64,000 bases of DNA from Pseudomonas cavernae (GTDB lineage Bacteria; Pseudomonadota; Gammaproteobacteria; Pseudomonadales; Pseudomonadaceae). The notes under the pieces are model-generated. The model saw only the letters and a program-made list of their open reading frames with translations, did no database searches and had not been told where the DNA came from. The DNA is taken from assembly GCF_003595175.1 (NCBI RefSeq), contig NZ_CP032419.1, forward strand, positions 4,216,001 to 4,280,000. Reading direction: 5' to 3'. Both the position numbers and the translations under genes were made by a program. Every line of letters begins with the position of its first letter. The first letter of the stretch is position 1. Below are positions 1,200-50,036 of the stretch, one piece after another.

Positions 1200-3266
1200 T
1201 TACGCCTCTGGAATCGGCTGGAACGGACTTTCCCGGTCGCTCCGCTCGCCCTTGCCCAAGGCCGCCAAGCCGACCTTGAAGGCATAGAGCAGGATGCTGA
1301 ACACCACCAGCAGGAACAGCGCGGTGAGCGTGGCATTGGTGTAGGCGTTGAAGATCACATGCTGCATCTGGCCGATGTCCTTGGCCGGGGCCAGCACCTG
1401 GCCGGCGGCCAGGGCGTCGCTGTATTTCTGCCCGAGGGCGATGAAGCCGACCGCCGGGTTCGGATCGAACAGCTTGATCAGGCCGGCGGCCGTGGTGCAG
1501 ATCAGCAGCCAGAGGGCCGGCACCAGGGTGACCCAGACATAGCGCTGGCGCTTCATCTTGATCAGCACCACGGTGCCGAGCATCAGCGCGATGCCGGCGA
1601 GCATCTGGTTGGAGATACCGAACAGCGGCCACAGGGTGTTGATGCCGCCGAGCGGGTCGATCACGCCTTGATACAGCAGCCAGCCCCACAGCGCCACGCA
1701 ACCGGCGGTGGCGACCACGTTGGCGCCCCAGGACTCGGTATTCTTCAGCGCCGGCACGAAGTTGCCCAGCAGATCCTGCAGCATGAAACGCCCGGCACGG
1801 GTGCCGGCGTCCACCGCGGTGAGGATGAACAGCGCCTCGAACAGGATCGCGAAGTGGTACCAGAAGGCCATGGTGTTCTCACCCGGCAACACCTGGTGAA
1901 GGATGTGGGCAATGCCCACCGCCAGGGTCGGCGCCCCGCCGGCACGGGCGAGGATGGTGTTCTCGCCGATGTCCCTGGCGGTGGCCGTGAGCATTTCCGG
2001 CGTGACGGCGAAGCCCCAACTGCTGATGGTCGCCGCCACGCTGGTGACGTCGGCACCGACGATCGCCGCCGGGCTGTTCATGGCGAAGTAGATCCCCGGT
2101 TCGATCACCGACGCGGCAACCATGGCCATGATGGCGACGAAGGACTCCATCAGCATGCCGCCGTAACCGATGTAACGGGCATGCGACTCGCTGGCCAGCA
2201 GCTTCGGCGTGGTGCCGGAGCTGATCAGCGCATGGAAGCCGGATACCGCGCCACAGGCGATGGTGATGAACAGGAAGGGGAACAGTGTGCCTTTCCACAC
2301 CGGCCCGGTGCCGTCGGTGAACTGGGTCAGCGCCGGCATTTTCAGCTCAGGCAGGACGATCAGGATGCCGATGGCCAGGGCGATGATGGTGCCGATCTTG
2401 AGGAAGGTCGACAGATAGTCACGCGGCGCCAGGATCAGCCATACCGGCAGCACCGCGGCGACGAAGCCGTAACCCACCAGCATCCAGGTGATCTGCACCC
2501 CGGTGAAGGTGAACACCGGCGCCCACTCCGGGCTGGCGGCGATCTGCCCGCCCAGCCAGATCGAGCCGAGCAGCAGCGCCACGCCGACCACCGAGATCTC
2601 GCCGATCCGGCCCGGACGGATGTAACGCATGTACACGCCCATGAACATCGCGATGGGGATGGTCGCCATCACCGTGAACATGCCCCAGGGGCTCTCGGCC
2701 AGGGCCTTGACCACGATCAGCGACAACACCGCGAGGATGATGATCATGATCAGGAAGCAGCCGAACAGGGCGATGGTGCCGGGCACCTGGCCCATCTCCT
2801 CACGGACCATGTCACCCAGCGAACGGCCGTTGCGGCGGGTGGACATGAACAACACCATGAAGTCCTGCACCGCACCGGCCAGCACCACGCCGGCGATCAG
2901 CCACAGGGTGCCGGGCAGGTAGCCCATCTGCGCGGCCAGCACCGGTCCCACCAGCGGTCCGGCGCCGGCGATGGCGGCGAAGTGGTGGCCGAACAGCACG
3001 TGCTTGTTGGTCGGCACGTAGTCCAGACCATCGTTGTGCAGCAGCGCCGGCGTGGCGCGGCGCGGATCCAACTGCATCACCTTCTCGGCGATGAACAGGC
3101 TGTAATAACGGTAAGCAACCAGATAGATGGCGATGGCCGCCACCACTATCCAAATCGCGTTGATGGCTTCACCGCGACGCAGGGCCACGACACCCAAGGC
3201 ACAAGCACCCACTATCGCCAGCACGATCCAGGGGATGTGGCGCAGGACGCTGTTGTTATTATTCAT
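1200..3266 (-). CDS. btsT: CstA/BtsT family pyruvate/peptide transporter
   Basis: This large inner-membrane permease of the carbon starvation protein CstA family (about 688 residues) has many hydrophobic helices and the conserved early segment containing GHHFAAIAGAGPLVGP. Members import pyruvate or peptides under nutrient limitation. I chose the ATG at 3264-3266 (protein MNNNNSV...) because GGAG sits six bases upstream; an in-frame ATG four codons earlier overlaps that site. The downstream yjiX and yjiA-type genes match the E. coli btsT neighbourhood, while the Pseudomonas homologue is often named cstA. Substrate is inferred from the family. Confidence 0.9.
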   Translation of the reverse strand: MNNNNSVLRHIPWIVLAIVGACALGVVALRRGEAINAIWIVVAAIAIYLVAYRYYSLFIAEKVMQLDPRRATPALLHNDGLDYVPTNKHVLFGHHFAAIAGAGPLVGPVLAAQMGYLPGTLWLIAGVVLAGAVQDFMVLFMSTRRNGRSLGDMVREEMGQVPGTIALFGCFLIMIIILAVLSLIVVKALAESPWGMFTVMATIPIAMFMGVYMRYIRPGRIGEISVVGVALLLGSIWLGGQIAASPEWAPVFTFTGVQITWMLVGYGFVAAVLPVWLILAPRDYLSTFLKIGTIIALAIGILIVLPELKMPALTQFTDGTGPVWKGTLFPFLFITIACGAVSGFHALISSGTTPKLLASESHARYIGYGGMLMESFVAIMAMVAASVIEPGIYFAMNSPAAIVGADVTSVAATISSWGFAVTPEMLTATARDIGENTILARAGGAPTLAVGIAHILHQVLPGENTMAFWYHFAILFEALFILTAVDAGTRAGRFMLQDLLGNFVPALKNTESWGANVVATAGCVALWGWLLYQGVIDPLGGINTLWPLFGISNQMLAGIALMLGTVVLIKMKRQRYVWVTLVPALWLLICTTAAGLIKLFDPNPAVGFIALGQKYSDALAAGQVLAPAKDIGQMQHVIFNAYTNATLTALFLLVVFSILLYAFKVGLAALGKGERSDRESPFQPIPEA

Positions 3267-3335
3267 GGAAGACTCCAAACGGATGGACAGACAGGCTGCC
3301 GCCTAAGCTTAGCCGGCTCAGTGGAATCAGCCATC

Positions 3336-42971: not shown

Positions 42972-44621
42972 TCAGACCAGATGCGGCGTGCTGCGCGCCA
43001 CCAGCGCCTCGACATCGATCCCGCGCGGCAAGGTGCCGTAGACCCGCCCGCCTTGGCCCAGGCGGCTGGCGATAAAGGCATCGGAGACAGTGGCATTGCC
43101 GGCCTCCAGCAACAGCTTGGCCTGCAGGGCAATGGCCACGTCTTCAGTCAGCTGGCGGGCGCGGTACTGGATGTCGCCGGTGTCGCGGAAGGCCGCCTGC
43201 AGTTGCTGGATATGCGTCTTGAGGCGGGCATCGCCGTGGCCGTCGCCGAGTTCGGCAAACAGCGCGTCGAGCACGCCCGGCTCCTTGGACAGCGCGCGCA
43301 GCACGTCCAGGCACTGGACGTTGCCCGAGCCCTCCCAGGTGGAGTTGACCGGCGCCTCGCGGTACAGCCTTGGGAGGATGGTGTCCTCGACATAGCCGGC
43401 GCCGCCCAGGCACTCGGCGGCCTCGTTGATCATCGCCGGGGCGCGCTTGCAGATCCAATACTTGCCGACCGCGGTGACCAGGCGGGCGAACTTGTCCTCC
43501 TGGGCGTCGTGCGGGTTGTCCAGGGCGCGGCCCATGCGCATGGTCAGCGCCAGCGCCGCCTCGCTTTCCAGGGCCAGGTCGGCCAGCACGTTCTGCATCA
43601 GCGGCTGTTCGGCCAGCACCCGGCCGCCGACCTGGCGGTGCGCGCAGTGGTGCGCGGCCTGGGTCAGCGCTTGGCGCATCAGCGCACTGGAGCCGACCAT
43701 GCAGTCGAAGCGGGTCAGCGCCACCATCTCGATGATGGTCGGCACGCCGCGGCCTTCTTCGCCGATCATCCAGGCCAGGGCGCCGCGGTACTCGACTTCG
43801 CTGGAGGCGTTCGACCAGTTGCCCAGCTTGTTCTTCAGGCGCTGGATGTAGAACTCGTTGCGGCTGCCGTCCGGGCGGTGGCGCGGCAGCAGGAAGCAGG
43901 TCAGGCCCTTGTCGGTGTAGGCCAGGGTGAGGAAGGCATCGCACATCGGCGCCGAGCAGAACCACTTGTGGCCGACCAGCTCGTAGGCCTGGCCCGGGCC
44001 GGGAATGCCCACCGGATAGGCCTTGGTGGTGTTGGCGCGGACGTCGGTGCCGCCCTGCTTCTCGGTCATCGCCATGCCGATGGTGGCGCCGGCCTTCTGC
44101 CCGATCGGCAGGTTGCGCGGGTCATACTGGGTGGCGAGGATCTTCGGCAGCCAGGCTTCGGCGATGTTCGGCTGCAACTTGAGCGCCGGCACGCTGGCGT
44201 AGGTCATGGTCAACGGGCAGCCGCTGCCGGCCTCGGCCTGACTGTGCAGATAGCTCATCGCCGCGCGGGCGACCTGGGCGCCGGCACGCGGGTCGGTCCA
44301 GGGCAAGGACGGCAGGCCGTGCTCGATGGCCGTGCGCATCAGCTCGTGATAGGCCGGGTGGAACTCCACCAGATCGATGCGATGGCCATAGCGGTCATGG
44401 CTCTTGAACACCGGCTTGTTCTCGTTGGCGAGAAAACCGGCGGCCAGCAGCGGGCCGCCGGCCAGGGCGCCATAGGCGTCGATGCGCGCCTCGGCCCAGC
44501 CGCCACCGAAGCGGCGGGTCCACTCCTGCAACGGCAGGTCGACGCGATAGAGGTTGGCGCCGTCCAGCGGCGGCACCTGGTTGAGTACTTCATGGGTCTC
44601 GGCGAACTGGTGCAGGCTCAT
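42972..44621 (-). CDS. aidB: AidB-type acyl-CoA dehydrogenase family flavoprotein
   Basis: This 549-residue protein aligns along its length with E. coli AidB as I remember it: NANLYRVDLPLQEW-like start, ANENKPVFKSHDRYGHRIDLVEFHPAYHELM, EAGSGCPLTMTYASVPAL, GMAMTEKQGGTDVRANTT (FAD loop), GHKWFCSAPMCDAFL, KNKLGNWSNASSEVE and GSGNVQCLDVLRAL. AidB binds FAD and DNA and is linked to protection against alkylation damage. Here it follows a TetR gene, with its GGAG site inside the last tetR codons, so control by that TetR is likely rather than by Ada. Confidence 0.93.
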   Translation of the reverse strand: MSLHQFAETHEVLNQVPPLDGANLYRVDLPLQEWTRRFGGGWAEARIDAYGALAGGPLLAAGFLANENKPVFKSHDRYGHRIDLVEFHPAYHELMRTAIEHGLPSLPWTDPRAGAQVARAAMSYLHSQAEAGSGCPLTMTYASVPALKLQPNIAEAWLPKILATQYDPRNLPIGQKAGATIGMAMTEKQGGTDVRANTTKAYPVGIPGPGQAYELVGHKWFCSAPMCDAFLTLAYTDKGLTCFLLPRHRPDGSRNEFYIQRLKNKLGNWSNASSEVEYRGALAWMIGEEGRGVPTIIEMVALTRFDCMVGSSALMRQALTQAAHHCAHRQVGGRVLAEQPLMQNVLADLALESEAALALTMRMGRALDNPHDAQEDKFARLVTAVGKYWICKRAPAMINEAAECLGGAGYVEDTILPRLYREAPVNSTWEGSGNVQCLDVLRALSKEPGVLDALFAELGDGHGDARLKTHIQQLQAAFRDTGDIQYRARQLTEDVAIALQAKLLLEAGNATVSDAFIASRLGQGGRVYGTLPRGIDVEALVARSTPHLV

Positions 44622-44623
44622 GG

Positions 44624-45271
44624 TTATTGCTCCTCAGTTGGCAAGTGCGCGCCCACGGCGCGCAGGCAGAAAGTGACCAGGGCCTGACTGACGTCGGCCA
44701 GCTCCAGGCTCGGCCGTCCCGACTCGCGCGCCGCACGGGCCGGCGGCGACAGCGGGCCGACCAGCGCTTCGGCGATGGCGCCGACCAGGCAGGCGGCGCT
44801 CAGGGGGATGGGTTGCTGGCGCAATACGCCGACCTGCACGCCCTCCTCCAGCAACTCGGCGAACAGGCCGGCATAGGCCTCGCGGTAGCGCAGGCGCTGT
44901 TCGTCGACTTCCGGATCGACCGGCTCGGCGATCAAGGCGAAGGCCAGGCGGCGACTGTGCCAGGCGCGCGCGGCGAACTGTTCAAGCCCCGCGGTGAGAC
45001 GCGCGGCGACACTGCCGGGGGCGCGCAGGGCCTGACCCAGCATATCCACCTCATGCTGGCTGGCGCGGGCGAAGACCTCCGCCGCCAACTCGCCCTTGCC
45101 GCGAAAATGCCGGTACAGACTGCCGGTGGCGATGCCGACGTCCTCGGCCAGGCCCTGCATGGTCAAGGCGGCGAAACCGCCAGCGGCGACCCGCGCCAGC
45201 GCGCAGTCGAGGATGCGTTCGCGCAACTCGAGGTCGCGGTCCTGACGGGCTTCGGTGGTGCGATAGGCCAT
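44624..45271 (-). CDS. TetR family repressor of aidB
   Basis: This 215-residue TetR-type regulator has the N-terminal helix-turn-helix (ALTMQGLAEDVGIATGSLYRHFRGKGELAAEVF, about 36-66, shown here only by its key parts MQGLAEDVG and GSLYRHF) and a variable ligand domain with several aromatic residues. The gene is two bases upstream of aidB and its stop region includes the aidB ribosome site. A double palindrome overlaps its own 5' region, which suggests autorepression and co-control of aidB. The inducer is unknown. Confidence 0.9.
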   Translation of the reverse strand: MAYRTTEARQDRDLELRERILDCALARVAAGGFAALTMQGLAEDVGIATGSLYRHFRGKGELAAEVFARASQHEVDMLGQALRAPGSVAARLTAGLEQFAARAWHSRRLAFALIAEPVDPEVDEQRLRYREAYAGLFAELLEEGVQVGVLRQQPIPLSAACLVGAIAEALVGPLSPPARAARESGRPSLELADVSQALVTFCLRAVGAHLPTEEQ

Positions 45272-45274
45272 AAA

Positions 45275-45316
45275 CTGAATCCTGATTCACTCTTTGCCTA
45301 GTGAATCAGGATTCAG
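45275..45316. promoter_or_regulatory. TetR operator: paired palindromes upstream of tetR-aidB
   Basis: CTGAATCCTGATTCAC (45275-45290) and GTGAATCAGGATTCAG (45301-45316) are a perfect 16-bp inverted repeat separated by 10 bp, and each half is itself nearly palindromic (TGAATC..GATTCA). It starts four bases from the tetR start codon on its upstream side. This is a typical TetR operator layout for two dimers. Between 45317 and 45490 nothing else is seen. Confidence 0.8.
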
Positions 45317-45490
45317 ATCTTGCAGAAAGCGGGATTTGCGCCAAAACCACGCGCGTATTGGTCGCCGGGAAAGAGTGCCGCGGCGCGGGCACGTTACGCG
45401 CGCAGAGTTAGATAAGGCGCTGCTGCCGCCGAAAGCGGCGCCACTCAGAGCAGGCACTGCCGCGCCTGCCAGGCTGACTGAACGCCGTGA

Positions 45491-45655
45491 CTAGTGGCCT
45501 GTACGGTTAGTTGGTTAACTCAAGTTCGGATGGCTGAGGTTCTGAGACCAGGCGCTGCGACGAGTCATAGCAGGGCTATGGCGAGGAGCAGCAACGCAGT
45601 ATCGGGACCTCAGGCGCCGAAATTGACTAATTGAACTAACCACACAGGCCACTAG
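45491..45655 (+). mobile_element. 165-bp MITE-like element, type A, copy 1
   Basis: It begins CTAGTGGCCTGTACGGTTAG and ends with the inverted counterpart CTAACCACACAGGCCACTAG, so the ends share CTAGTGGCCTGT and GGTTAGTT blocks. The core has a CATAGC/GCTATG stem. It is non-coding. A copy with only 3 differences in 165 bp is at 48337 in the same orientation on the other side of ladS. It lies 17 bp beyond the ladS stop codon. Confidence 0.9.
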
Positions 45656-45672
45656 CAACCTGGCAGGGCGGG

Positions 45673-48078
45673 TCAGGCCTGAACCCCAGGGGGCGGGCTG
45701 CCTGCCGGCTGGCCCAGCAGCCAGGCCTGCAACAGCGTCTGCAGCGCCTCGAACTTCACCGGCTTGGCCAGGTAGTCGCTCATCCCGGCCGCCAGGCAAC
45801 GCTCGCGGTCGCCGCTGTGGCTGTGCGCGGTGATCGCCAGCACCGGCAGCTCGGCGCAGCCCGGCAGGGCGCGCAGCGCGCGGCAGGTGGCGAAGCCGTC
45901 CATCACCGGCATCTGACAATCCAGCAACACCGCGTCCACCGCCTCGCGGCGCAGCAGTTCGAGGGCCTCGGCGCCGTTGTCGGCATAGCGCACCCGGTAA
46001 CCGAGCTTGAGCAGCATGCCGCGGGTCACCAGCTGGTTGATCGCGTTGTCCTCGACCACCAGCACCGTGCACTGCTCGGGATGGCGCCCCGGAGTGCCGG
46101 CCGCGTGCTTCGGCGTCGACGCCACGGCCGTCTGCGCCGGCAACGACAGAGGTACGCAGAGCTGGAAGCAACTGCCCTGCCCCGGCATGGACTGATGGCT
46201 GAGCGTGCCGCCGAGCAGGTCGACCAGTTGCCGGCAGATCGCCAGGCCGACACCGAGGCCGCCATAGGCGCGGGTCATCGAGCCGTCCAGCTGCTGGAAG
46301 CGCCGGTACAGGCTGCCATCCGCCGGCACGCTGAAGCCGATGCCGCTGTCGATCACCTCGACGCACAGCGGCAGGCTGCCGCGCTCGACCACGGCGCGAC
46401 GCACGCGCAGGCAGACGCCGCCAGTCGAGGTGAACTTGATCGCGTTGTCGAGCAGGTAGCCGAGGCACTGCGCCAGCTTGCCGGCATCGCCTTCGAGGGT
46501 GTCGGGCAGGCTGTCACCCAGTTCCAGGCTGAAGCTCAGGCCTTTGGCCTCGGCGCGCGGGTTGAACTGCCCGTGCAGGCCATCGCACAGGCCGCGCAGA
46601 CTGAACGGCTCGCGCCGTGGATAGAGCTTGCCGGCCTGTAGCTCGGTGAGGGTGAGGATGTCGTTGACCATGCGCATCATGTCGCGCGCCGAGCTGGCCG
46701 CAGTGTTCTGGTACTGCGCCAGCTCGGCGTCCAGCGCCACCGTCTGCATCAGTTCCAGCGAGCCGATCACCCCGTTCATCGGCGTGCGCAGCTCATGGGT
46801 GACGGTGGCGAGGAACTCGTCCTTGAGACGGTTGCTGTTGGCCAGTTCCTGGTTCAGCGCCTCCAGCTTGCGCCCGGACTCGTAGAGAATCCGCGCCCGC
46901 TCCTCCTTCATCGCGTTGATGCGGTCGGCCAGCGCCAGCGACAGCAGGCCGACCTCGATCGCCGAGCCGATCTGGCTGGCGTACATGGTCAGGAACATGT
47001 TCGGCAGATAGCCTAGGACCATCAGGGTGTTGACGATGCCCCCAAGCAGGAAGGCGCTCCAGGCGATGATGAAATAGCGTGCCACCCGCATGTTGCGACG
47101 CCAGGCGGAGAAAGCGGCGGCAAAGATCACCACGGTGAACAACAGGGCGACATAGGTGGCCCAGCGCAGTGAGAAACCGTAGCTGGCGGTGAGCGCCAGC
47201 AGCATCGCCAGCGCGCCGAGCGCCATCATGCCGAGCAGACTGCGGTCGATCCACGGGCTGTGTTCGGCGGTGTGCAGGAAGCTGCGCGCGAACTGGCAGC
47301 CGAACAGCGCCGCCGAGCCGATCAGGAACGGCGTCGCGGCGTTCGCCCACCAGGGGCTGTTGGGCCAGAAGTACTCGATGCCGGCGCCGTTCACCGACAC
47401 TTGGTAGAGGCCGAACGAGGCGATATAGAGGATGTAATAGAGGTAGCTGGTGTCGCGCACGCTGAGGTAAATGAACAGGTTGTAGATCAGCATCACCAGC
47501 AGCACGCCGTAGATGATGCCGAGCACATAGATGCGCCCCGGCTGCGCCTCTAGATAAGCGGTCGGCGACCACAGGCTCAGCGGCGCCTGGATCGAACCCT
47601 GGCTCTTCAGGCGCAGGTACAGGCGCTGCGGCTGCCCGGGCTGCAGGTCGAGTTCGAACAGGTAGTTGTTCTGGCGGATCTGCCGGCTGGTGAACGGATG
47701 CGCATCGCCGGTGCGCTGGGCGAGCTGGAAGCCGCCGCGACCGTCGGCCAGGTAGAGGTCGAGGTGATCCAGCGGCGGGTAGGCCAGCTCCAGCAGCCAG
47801 GCCTGCTGGCCACGGGCCGCTTGCGGTCGGTAGTCGAGATCGAGGCGCAGCCAGAACACCGAGCGCGAGTAGCCAGCGTTCAGCACGTCCCGATCGAAGC
47901 GGCGGAAACTGCCTTGCAAGGCCGGCGAGAGGATCTCGTCGATGCTGGCGTCGCCACGCACGTCCTCGAACACCTCCATGTGCCGGCCGAGCGGCAGCTG
48001 GCGGGTATGCTCGTCGAATTCGACCGCGCCGGCCAGGCTGGCCAGCAGGCATAGGAATAGAAACAGGCTGTAGCGCAT
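45673..48078 (-). CDS. ladS: Hybrid sensor histidine kinase LadS
   Basis: This 801-residue hybrid kinase has a signal peptide, a periplasmic 7TMR-DISMED2 domain (about 20-175), seven transmembrane helices (about 183-385), a HisKA domain with His428 in THELRTPMNG, an HATPase domain (DNAIKF near 544, GLGVGLAI near 607) and a receiver with Asp720 in LLDCQMPVMDG. This architecture, with a single receiver, and its place between tetR-aidB and thiD match P. aeruginosa LadS. LadS responds to calcium and passes signal to GacS, raising RsmY/RsmZ and favouring biofilm over acute virulence. Identity is inferred from domains and synteny. Direct repeats flank the gene. Confidence 0.9.
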   Translation of the reverse strand: MRYSLFLFLCLLASLAGAVEFDEHTRQLPLGRHMEVFEDVRGDASIDEILSPALQGSFRRFDRDVLNAGYSRSVFWLRLDLDYRPQAARGQQAWLLELAYPPLDHLDLYLADGRGGFQLAQRTGDAHPFTSRQIRQNNYLFELDLQPGQPQRLYLRLKSQGSIQAPLSLWSPTAYLEAQPGRIYVLGIIYGVLLVMLIYNLFIYLSVRDTSYLYYILYIASFGLYQVSVNGAGIEYFWPNSPWWANAATPFLIGSAALFGCQFARSFLHTAEHSPWIDRSLLGMMALGALAMLLALTASYGFSLRWATYVALLFTVVIFAAAFSAWRRNMRVARYFIIAWSAFLLGGIVNTLMVLGYLPNMFLTMYASQIGSAIEVGLLSLALADRINAMKEERARILYESGRKLEALNQELANSNRLKDEFLATVTHELRTPMNGVIGSLELMQTVALDAELAQYQNTAASSARDMMRMVNDILTLTELQAGKLYPRREPFSLRGLCDGLHGQFNPRAEAKGLSFSLELGDSLPDTLEGDAGKLAQCLGYLLDNAIKFTSTGGVCLRVRRAVVERGSLPLCVEVIDSGIGFSVPADGSLYRRFQQLDGSMTRAYGGLGVGLAICRQLVDLLGGTLSHQSMPGQGSCFQLCVPLSLPAQTAVASTPKHAAGTPGRHPEQCTVLVVEDNAINQLVTRGMLLKLGYRVRYADNGAEALELLRREAVDAVLLDCQMPVMDGFATCRALRALPGCAELPVLAITAHSHSGDRERCLAAGMSDYLAKPVKFEALQTLLQAWLLGQPAGSPPPGVQA

Positions 48079-48174
48079 GCGGCCCCGCAGAGACCCCGTC
48101 GCAGCACGCCGAGAGTCCCCACTCTCGCCGCTGGCGCTACCGCGCAGGGCCGGATTATTGAGTTTGGCGCCACT

Positions 48175-48340
48175 CTAGTGTCCCGAACCGGAAGTTGGCT
48201 ATTTAATTTTGCCGGTGCCTCTTGCCGGCATGCGGCGTTGCCACTCCTCGCCATAGCGGAGCCATGCTCGTCGCGGCGCCTGGCCTGCCAACAACATTCA
48301 CGCGCCAACTCTTAAACGAACTCCCAATTCAGGACACTAG
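48175..48340 (-). mobile_element. 166-bp MITE-like element, type B, diverged inverted relative of type A
   Basis: Its ends CTAGTGTCCCGAACCGGAAG and, in reverse complement, CTAGTGTCCTGAATTGGGAG match at most positions. The core GCGTTGCCACTCCTCGCCAT aligns with the reverse complement of the type A core. It therefore looks like a distant relative in the opposite direction. Its right-hand CTAG (48337-48340) is also the first four bases of the next type A copy. The 48079-48174 stretch upstream of ladS shows no gene. Confidence 0.8.
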
Positions 48341-48501
48341 TGGCCTGTACGGTTAGTTGGTTAACTCAAGTTCGGATGGCTGAGGTTCTGAGACCAGGCG
48401 CTGCGACGAGTCATAGCAGGGCTATGGCGAGGAGCAGCAACGCCGTATCGGGACCTCAGACGCCGAAATTGACTAATTGAACTAACTACACAGGCCACTA
48501 G
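48337..48501 (+). mobile_element. 165-bp MITE-like element, type A, copy 2
   Basis: It has the same length, ends and orientation as the copy at 45491 and differs at three bases that I can count. The shared CTAG with element B means that the two elements abut without a spacer. It lies 105 bp upstream of the thiD start codon. Between 48502 and 48606 only a small TGAC...GTCA repeat (48551-48564) is seen. Confidence 0.9.
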
Positions 48502-48606
48502 CACCGCCGCCCGGCGGAAAAGCCAGGCATCCCCGGCGTGACCCAATAGCTGACGCCACGGTCAATTAAGGCCATCGCCAACGGAAAAATGCTAAGCTCG
48601 CGCACC

Positions 48607-49404
48607 ATGAATACCTACAGTTCCCGCCCCGTTGTTCTCTGCCTTTCCGGCCACGACCCCAGTGGTGGTGCCGGCCTGCAGGCGGATATCGAAGCCCTGC
48701 TGGCCCAGGGTTGCCACGCCGCTCCGGCGGTCACCGCGCTGACCGTGCAGGATAGCGTCAACGTCCAGGACTTTCGCGTGCTCGACCGCGCCTGGGTGCT
48801 GGCCCAGGCCCATGCGGTGATCGCCGATCTGCCGGTCGCCGCGGTCAAGCTGGGCATGCTCGGCTCGGTGGAGATGGTCGACACCGTGCTGGAAATCATG
48901 CAGGCGCTGCCCGGTGTGCCGCTGGTCTGCGACCCGGTGCTGCGCGCCGGCGGCGGCGGCGCCCTGGGCAAGGACGAAGTCGGCTACGCCATGCGCGAAC
49001 GCCTGCTGCCGCTGGCGACCATCGCCACCCCCAACCTGCCGGAAGCCCGCATCCTCGCCGAACTGCCGAATGGCAGCGCCGACGAATGCGCGGAGAAGCT
49101 GCTGCCTTATGTCCAGCATCTGCTGATCACCGGCGGCCACGGCGACGAGGCCGAAGTGCACAACCGCCTGTATTCGCGCGACGGCAGCCGCCACAGCTTC
49201 AGCTGCCAGCGCCTGCCCGGCAGCTACCACGGCTCCGGCTGCACCCTGGCCAGCACCCTGGCCGGTCGCCTGGCCCTGGGCGAGCACCTCGCCAGCGCGG
49301 TGGAATCGGCGCTGGCCTATACCTGGCGCACCCTGCGCGACGCCGAACAGCTGGGCCACGGCCAGTTCATCCCGCGCCGCCTGCCGCTGGACTTCTGTTC
49401 ATGA
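48607..49404 (+). CDS. thiD: Hydroxymethylpyrimidine/phosphomethylpyrimidine kinase ThiD
   Basis: This 265-residue ribokinase-fold enzyme phosphorylates HMP twice to give HMP-PP for thiamine synthesis. Motifs are [15 protein letters not shown] (about 14-28), VKLGMLGS near 80, [10 protein letters not shown] near 107, TPNLPEA near 139 and the anion-hole [12 protein letters not shown] near 210-221. The ATG at 48607 gives the normal length. It overlaps thiE by four bases (ATGA), so the two are co-translated. No TPP riboswitch is seen before it. Confidence 0.96.
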
Positions 49405-50036
49405 GCCCACAACTGCGCGGTCTCTACGCCATCACCGACAGCCAGCTGCTGGCCGATGGCAAGCTGCTGCCCTATGTGGAAGCGGCATTGGCCGGCGGCG
49501 CCCGCCTGCTGCAGTACCGCGACAAGTCCGGCGACGCGGCCCGTCGCCTGGACGAGGCCAGCGCCCTGCACGAGCTGTGCCGGCGCCATGGCGCCGAACT
49601 GCTGATCAACGACGACGCCGAGCTGGCCGCACGCCTGGGCGTCGGCGTGCACCTGGGCCAGGGCGACGGCTCGCTGGTCGCCGCCCGCCGCCGGCTCGGC
49701 GGGGACGCCATCATCGGCGCCACCTGCCACGCTCAGCTGGAACTGGCCGAGCAGGCAGTCGCCGATGGCGCCAGCTATCTCGCCTTCGGCCGCTTCTTCA
49801 ACTCCAACACCAAGCCCGGCGCGCCGGCCGCCACGCTCGAACTGCTGAATGAAGCGCACAGTCGCTTCCAACTGCCGATCGTCGCCATCGGCGGTGTCAG
49901 CCTGGACAATGCGCCGGCGCTGATCGCCCGCGGCGCCAGCCTGATCGCCGTGATCCACGCGCTGTTCGCCGCCGACTCGGCTGCCGAGGTCGAGCGCCGT
50001 GCACGCGCCTTCAGCGCCCTGTTTGCAGCCCATTGA
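49401..50036 (+). CDS. thiE: Thiamine-phosphate synthase ThiE
   Basis: This 211-residue TIM-barrel enzyme joins HMP-PP and thiazole phosphate to give thiamine monophosphate. It shows LRGLYAITD at the start, LQYRDKSG (about 35-42), [23 protein letters not shown] (about 62-84), [26 protein letters not shown] and [13 protein letters not shown] near the end. Its start overlaps the thiD stop. hemL follows 22 bp later on the same strand. Confidence 0.96.

Follow-up and report, generated by a model that had tools for sequence, protein, structure and literature searches.

MITEs are short, multicopy elements that have no transposase of their own, carry terminal inverted repeats, and are bounded by a target-site duplication. 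Elements of the IS630/Tc1-mariner group target TA, and a MITE derived from IS630 usually, although not obligatorily, has an autonomous partner in the same genome. The excerpts of the literature used for comparison describe several families that resemble element A, a 165-bp repeat that flanks ladS, a sensor kinase gene for biofilm control, in Pseudomonas cavernae. RUP (repeat unit of pneumococcus) is, like A, short, gene-less, and intergenic, with a TA-containing target and IS630-family-like ends, and mobilization in trans by IS630-Spn1 has been proposed for it (PMC2229807). It comes from another genus, however, and is 107 bp long against the 165 bp of A; what sets A apart from RUP is its CTAG context, a core common to two MITE types, and a genome in which no resident transposase was detected. 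MITEPsy1 of Pseudomonas syringae has been shown to transpose and resembles A as a Pseudomonas MITE with CTAG (or YTAA) as its target; unlike A, it measures 100 nt, is attributed to the IS5-type ISPsy2, and is accompanied by a 4-nt duplication (PMC3189936). The end published for MITEPsy1 is GGAAGGTCTGAAAAAGCC (PMC3189936); compared with it by eye, A differs, with ends GTGGCCTGT..., as does E2, a second element at our locus, with ends GTGTCC..., and the ends of both are IS630-like. Among the repeats R0-R200 of Pseudomonas fluorescens SBW25, Pf0-1, and Pf-5, which we compared by description, there are likewise intergenic and partly MITE-like sequences with inverted-repeat ends, such as R6 of Pf0-1 (177 bp, 34-bp inverted repeats, 50 copies) (PMC2718517). 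The Correia or NEMIS elements of Neisseria, also compared by description, share the size class and the TA ends of A but belong to another genus; the transcribed element has been proposed to act on neighboring mRNAs (PMC2229807).

The window, by which we mean the whole stretch of 64,000 nucleotides that was analyzed, contains two copies of A around ladS (Table 1). A preliminary description had reported two 165-bp copies in the same orientation with three differences, and we recovered the same coordinates and placed the mismatches at element positions 108, 124, and 151 (162/165 identical). The match of one copy to the other is far above chance (BLAST E value of 2e-79), and the two direct copies are spaced 2846 bp apart. 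The copies had also been said to bracket ladS and little else. The gene does lie between them, but that statement left out E2, which abuts the upstream copy in such a way that one CTAG is common to both elements. On either side of the downstream copy stand the arms of a 9-bp inverted repeat (45465-45473 and 45659-45667; CCTGCCAGG and CCTGGCAGG), so that a hairpin could form 3' of ladS with this MITE as its loop.

Table 1. Features of the ladS locus, in window coordinates
Feature	Position	Strand	Remarks
MITE A, downstream copy	45491..45655	+	CTAG-bounded; 17 bp past the ladS stop codon; IS630-like ends
ladS, open frame for an 801-aa hybrid sensor kinase	45673..48078	-	Named from domain order and thiD neighborhood
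CTAGAGT, the downstream half of the promoter-like box of ladS, still in place (many relatives have TGCTAGAGT); the TG half is now past both elements	48172..48178	-	
E2, second CTAG-bounded MITE, 166 bp	48175..48340	.	Strand unassigned; ends GTGTCC...GGACAC
MITE A, upstream copy	48337..48501	+	CTAG-bounded; left CTAG (48337-48340) common to E2
thiD-like gene, divergent from ladS	48589..49404	+	TIGR00097, 183.9 bits, below the cutoff of 204.95

The kinase contains the Pfam domains 7TMR-DISMED2, 7TMR-DISM_7TM, HisKA, HATPase_c, and Response_reg. No LadS-specific model matched the 801-aa protein; we base the name on its domain architecture and its place beside thiD, as in Pseudomonas aeruginosa. 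The neighbors of ladS in the window are the thiD-like gene and thiE, and thiD-like sequence is present in 75 of 79 ladS loci. Of the best 80 loci of one scan, L027-L046 were used and the remainder, distant kinases, left out. A LadS match (E value of ≤1e-150) was found in 59/59 genomes of the genus searched, our own included. In 16 of these 59 (for example, G041, G007, and G003), the match covers only about the first 610 to 685 residues; these homologs may lack the receiver domain or may be other kinases. At an E value of ≤0.01, neither A nor E2 occurs in any of the 78 other ladS loci, some of which have short flanks and some of which perhaps represent one species twice.

The genome of this strain is a single contig of 4,949,615 bp in which we directly observe 12 near-full copies of A (162 to 165 bp), together with fragments, scattered along the chromosome. 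The terminal arms of A span 39 nt and are 79% complementary, and the sequence CTAGTGGCCTGT occurs 18 times in the genome, always at the end of an A copy. Ten of the 12 copies have CTAG at both borders, and in the remaining two one border reads CTAA. CTAG is rare in the window, where it occurs 34 times against 98 expected from trinucleotides. According to a rough call with a simple codon-bias filter, all 10 of the copies away from ladS lie outside gene-like frames, and ten neighboring proteins that we tested belong to varied families. Element A is a MITE, since it is mobile DNA that encodes no transposase itself; the earlier label "MITE-like" was right and can be refined to ISPpu2-like IS630 ends and a CTAG target. 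The near-identity of the ladS pair had been taken as a sign of recent insertion or gene conversion. This explanation is not needed, since unlinked copies are equally close (2 differences between 1580612 and 384566, and 3 between 1241330 and each of these two). As the ladS copies are no closer than some of these pairs, we favor a recently active family over local conversion.

Two pairs of A copies have members less than 3 kb apart: the one around ladS and another, in inverted orientation, at about 383 to 385 kb. When 12 copies were placed uniformly, at least two such gaps arose in 0.26% of trials (P of about 0.003), and at least one in 7.8%. Because two pairs exceed the uniform expectation, the landing of A is not fully random, and some local preference is likely. 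The 12 copies are dispersed and are not special to ladS. The inverted pair (chromosome G000, 383223-383385 and 384566-384730; L011 and L005) brackets a periplasmic-binding-protein gene at about 383.4 to 384.5 kb, and recombination between its members would invert the gene rather than delete it. Since this gene is bracketed as well, in inverted orientation, bracketing is not specific to ladS.

E2 and A have in common a 58-bp stretch (83% identity) that runs in opposite orientations in the window. E2 has one other near-full copy, at chromosome positions 3200375-3200543 (80%). There (L136), the E2-like element abuts a second E2-like end with one CTAG in common, an arrangement resembling the E2-A tandem, and end-to-end nesting at a CTAG border may be recurrent. 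A matched in 22 of 95 genomes, all 22 from the genus of the window; no more than 8 candidates were scored per genome. An exact 15-mer from the A end was present in 33 of 298 genus genomes, one of which holds 92 such ends. The most widely shared part of A lies at about query positions 61 to 108 and is also found in elements with other ends. Among the matches listed, 40 stretches of relatives' DNA surrounding A-type ends contained full copies of 161 to 163 bp, palindromes of 50 to 52 bp, fragments with a single end, one pair of ends separated by 79 bp, and an A/E2 chimera; no A copy bearing a transposase was recognized in these 40 stretches. The short palindromes consist of A-type ends without the core (L222, L225, L232, L237, and L245), and at other loci single-ended fragments continue into unrelated DNA. 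In the chimera (L227 of G129, 3112-3274), an A-type arm and an E2-type end are joined via the shared core. Plasmids gave no match to A, and phages gave a single 43-bp partial match, in an unannotated record.

Elements with such arms might instead be structured RNAs or regulatory hairpins that are retained beside genes for their function and are not mobile DNA at all. Copy 1 would indeed fold, as RNA, into a deep hairpin of -92.8 kcal/mol, and the arms covary across 37 elements, with 95.9% of cells paired and 27 of 46 pairs changed on both sides. That level was reached by none of 500 shuffles, which ignore relatedness, and slid versions of the alignment were 24 to 40% paired. The alignment derives from 38 full-length elements that a script found in 65 loci, chimera L227 being left out; 5 of the 12 own-genome A copies were offered to this set, and 4 entered it. 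Maintenance of a palindrome at the DNA level, however, fits the covariation equally well, and a strand test for RNA-level selection was not significant. Over all symmetric positions, G-T and A-C cells were balanced (187 versus 194); in mostly Watson-Crick columns they numbered 102 versus 47, with a P value of 0.44 in a column sign test and 0.08 when one copy was taken from each of 18 genomes. The G-U excess in RNAalifold pairs is biased by the way in which those pairs were chosen. Given that the comparison of G-T with A-C cells reveals no strand-specific selection, we read the covariation as palindrome maintenance in DNA and claim no RNA function. Moreover, element positions vary among genomes, the ends match IS630, the borders are CTAG, and no Rfam family reached its gathering score in the window, all of which makes the RNA reading improbable. 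Weak Rfam matches over the elements were judged to be due to chance, the best being a miRNA precursor family with 36 bits against a cutoff of 197.

A mobile origin raises the question of the transposase. As a candidate partner, the DDE_Tnp_1 (IS4/IS5-type) transposase was rejected: it gave 54 matches in 10 genomes, and the 30 loci scanned lacked end pairs resembling those of A or E2. At 4 IS630-type loci, this pattern scan likewise found no pair. The link to IS630 arose from reading the first two such loci inspected, each with one recognizable end (E2-like in L247 and A-like in L246), and then from closer relatives; 45 of 398 genomes of the genus contain relatives of the L246 transposase. We scanned 24 IS630 loci, some of them near-identical copies; 16 yielded an end pair (≥13/20) and 8 yielded none. 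Fifteen of the 16 pairs have CTAG on both sides, whereas L289 has CTAT on one. The ends that A has in common with these elements are seen directly: GTGGCCTGTACGGTTAGTTG and GTGGCCTGTGTGGTTAGTTC match ISPpu2-like ends at 16/20 and 18/20 positions, and the ends of E2 do so at 14/20 and 15/20, each value being the best of 24 IS ends. As a control, 54 other 20-mers that follow a CTAG in the window were compared with 20 of these IS ends, and the maximum was 12/20. In a BLAST search against 35 loci, the last 26 bp of A fell exactly on IS ends (best E value of 3e-5), and none of the 40 best matches listed covered the A core. A relative of the partner transposase on a Pseudomonas plasmid is annotated as "IS630-like element ISPpu2 family," and PF13358, the model for IS630-type transposases, was matched in 2 of 12 genomes with several A-type ends.

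The genome of this strain itself has no match to PF13358 and no ISPpu2-like protein at an E value of ≤1e-60; because no such transposase was detected there, the mobility of A in this strain is something that we infer. Judged by its ends, A is a non-autonomous IS630-derived MITE and joins a known kind (compare RUP), with an unusual landing place in the ladS box, and we likewise infer that an IS630 transposase mobilized it. The literature titles searched named no ISPpu2-like MITE of Pseudomonas, which is not proof of its absence from print.

The upstream insertion can be compared with uninterrupted loci. Many relatives carry TGCTAGAGT, and with it a CTAG, about 100 bp upstream of the ladS start codon. 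Among 75 distinct upstream regions other than our own (from 78 loci), the interval from -125 to -75 contains CTAGAGT in 45, another CTAG in 7, YTARAGT in 5, TANAGT in 4, and none of these four variants in 14; the pattern TGnTAnnnT occurs there in 55 of the 75. In a control stretch as long as this interval, CTAG is present in 1 of the 75 regions. The extended -10 promoter motif is what this combination of TG and TAGAGT resembles, and from its position and motif the box is the putative ladS promoter. A strict sigma-70 scan of positions 44500-49500, which has low power and a chance expectation of 0.3, found no promoter.

The empty site is directly visible in Pseudomonas carbonaria, which reads TCCGCCGGGCGGTTGCTATG, CTAG, AGT, where the window has the flanks TCCGCCGGGCGGCGGTG and AGT with both elements between them. 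More closely, the left flank in the window ends in GCCGGGCGGCGGTG and is followed by A, E2, and AGT, with a CTAG at every element border, against GCCGGGCGGTTGCTATG-CTAG-AGT in P. carbonaria. Relatives thus have a single CTAG where the window has one at every element border, a pattern compatible with a duplication of either 2 bp (TA) or 4 bp (CTAG). The 5 relatives compared showed no evident empty site that would correspond to the downstream copy. Direct copies of one MITE flanking a gene could also be the ends of a composite unit that moved jointly and brought ladS in, and a MITE-like sequence has been mentioned as transposing in a composite element (PMC3189936). The alignment of the outer upstream flank with the relative's empty site argues against such an import, as does the thiD-like gene, beside which ladS stands here as it does in 75 of the 79 loci; we consider it extremely improbable.

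E2 and A add 323 bp inside the promoter-like box and remove the TG from in front of TAGAGT. As TAGAGT is now parted by 323 bp from the upstream half of the box, native ladS expression has probably been changed. A further-reaching proposal is that the double insertion in the recurrent -10-like box replaced the promoter control of ladS, a global lifestyle regulator, in this lineage and that the downstream copy makes the rewired unit deletable by one recombination. A natural regulatory allele would then have been built by MITEs that landed separately, each at a target of the same kind. We advance this tentatively and regard it as rather doubtful.

Homologous deletion of the 2846 bp between the A copies is possible and physically plausible, and their direct orientation, spacing, and 162/165 identity suit it. 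The preliminary description went further and likened the locus to a ready-made phase-loss cassette. As an evolved cassette, the direct repeats would be kept around ladS so that recombination deletes it and switches lifestyle. Natural loss of ladS does exist, by another route: P. aeruginosa PA14 has a 49-nt duplication in the gene, and such repeats are not the cause (PMC3245244). The distribution of the elements, however, gives the cassette no support. The arrangement occurs in our genome alone among 79 ladS loci (A or E2 in 0 of the 78 others), a LadS match is retained in all 59 genomes of the genus, and the 10 further near-full A copies of the chromosome have genes of various families as neighbors. 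The periplasmic-binding-protein gene is bracketed likewise, by inverted copies, and a deletion is one-way, which is not phase variation. The sole state found is the two-copy arrangement, in one genome of the species. We regard an evolved switch as very unlikely; the bracketing of ladS most likely follows from the positions of CTAG sites, combined with a degree of local preference.

We favor, with a probability of roughly 85%, an account in which A is an IS630-type MITE that was mobilized in trans and landed at CTAG on either side of ladS, with a tandem in the promoter-like box. The non-autonomous, Tc1/mariner-like element would have been moved by an ISPpu2-like transposase that is undetectable in the genome now, and its two copies would have landed at the CTAG sites flanking ladS. 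The upstream event would have placed the E2 and A tandem in the CTAG of TGCTAGAGT, a box that recurs in the genus and resembles an extended -10 element. Separation of its upstream part may have weakened or replaced the native ladS promoter, and the two A copies could recombine at low frequency, which would delete ladS irreversibly.

An orphan family of Pseudomonas MITEs is now linked to a likely transposase family. The locus displays both the empty and the filled state of a CTAG promoter-like box, in which the target of an IS630-type MITE coincides with the box of a conserved regulator. Insertions of such elements may recur at promoter boxes that contain CTAG.
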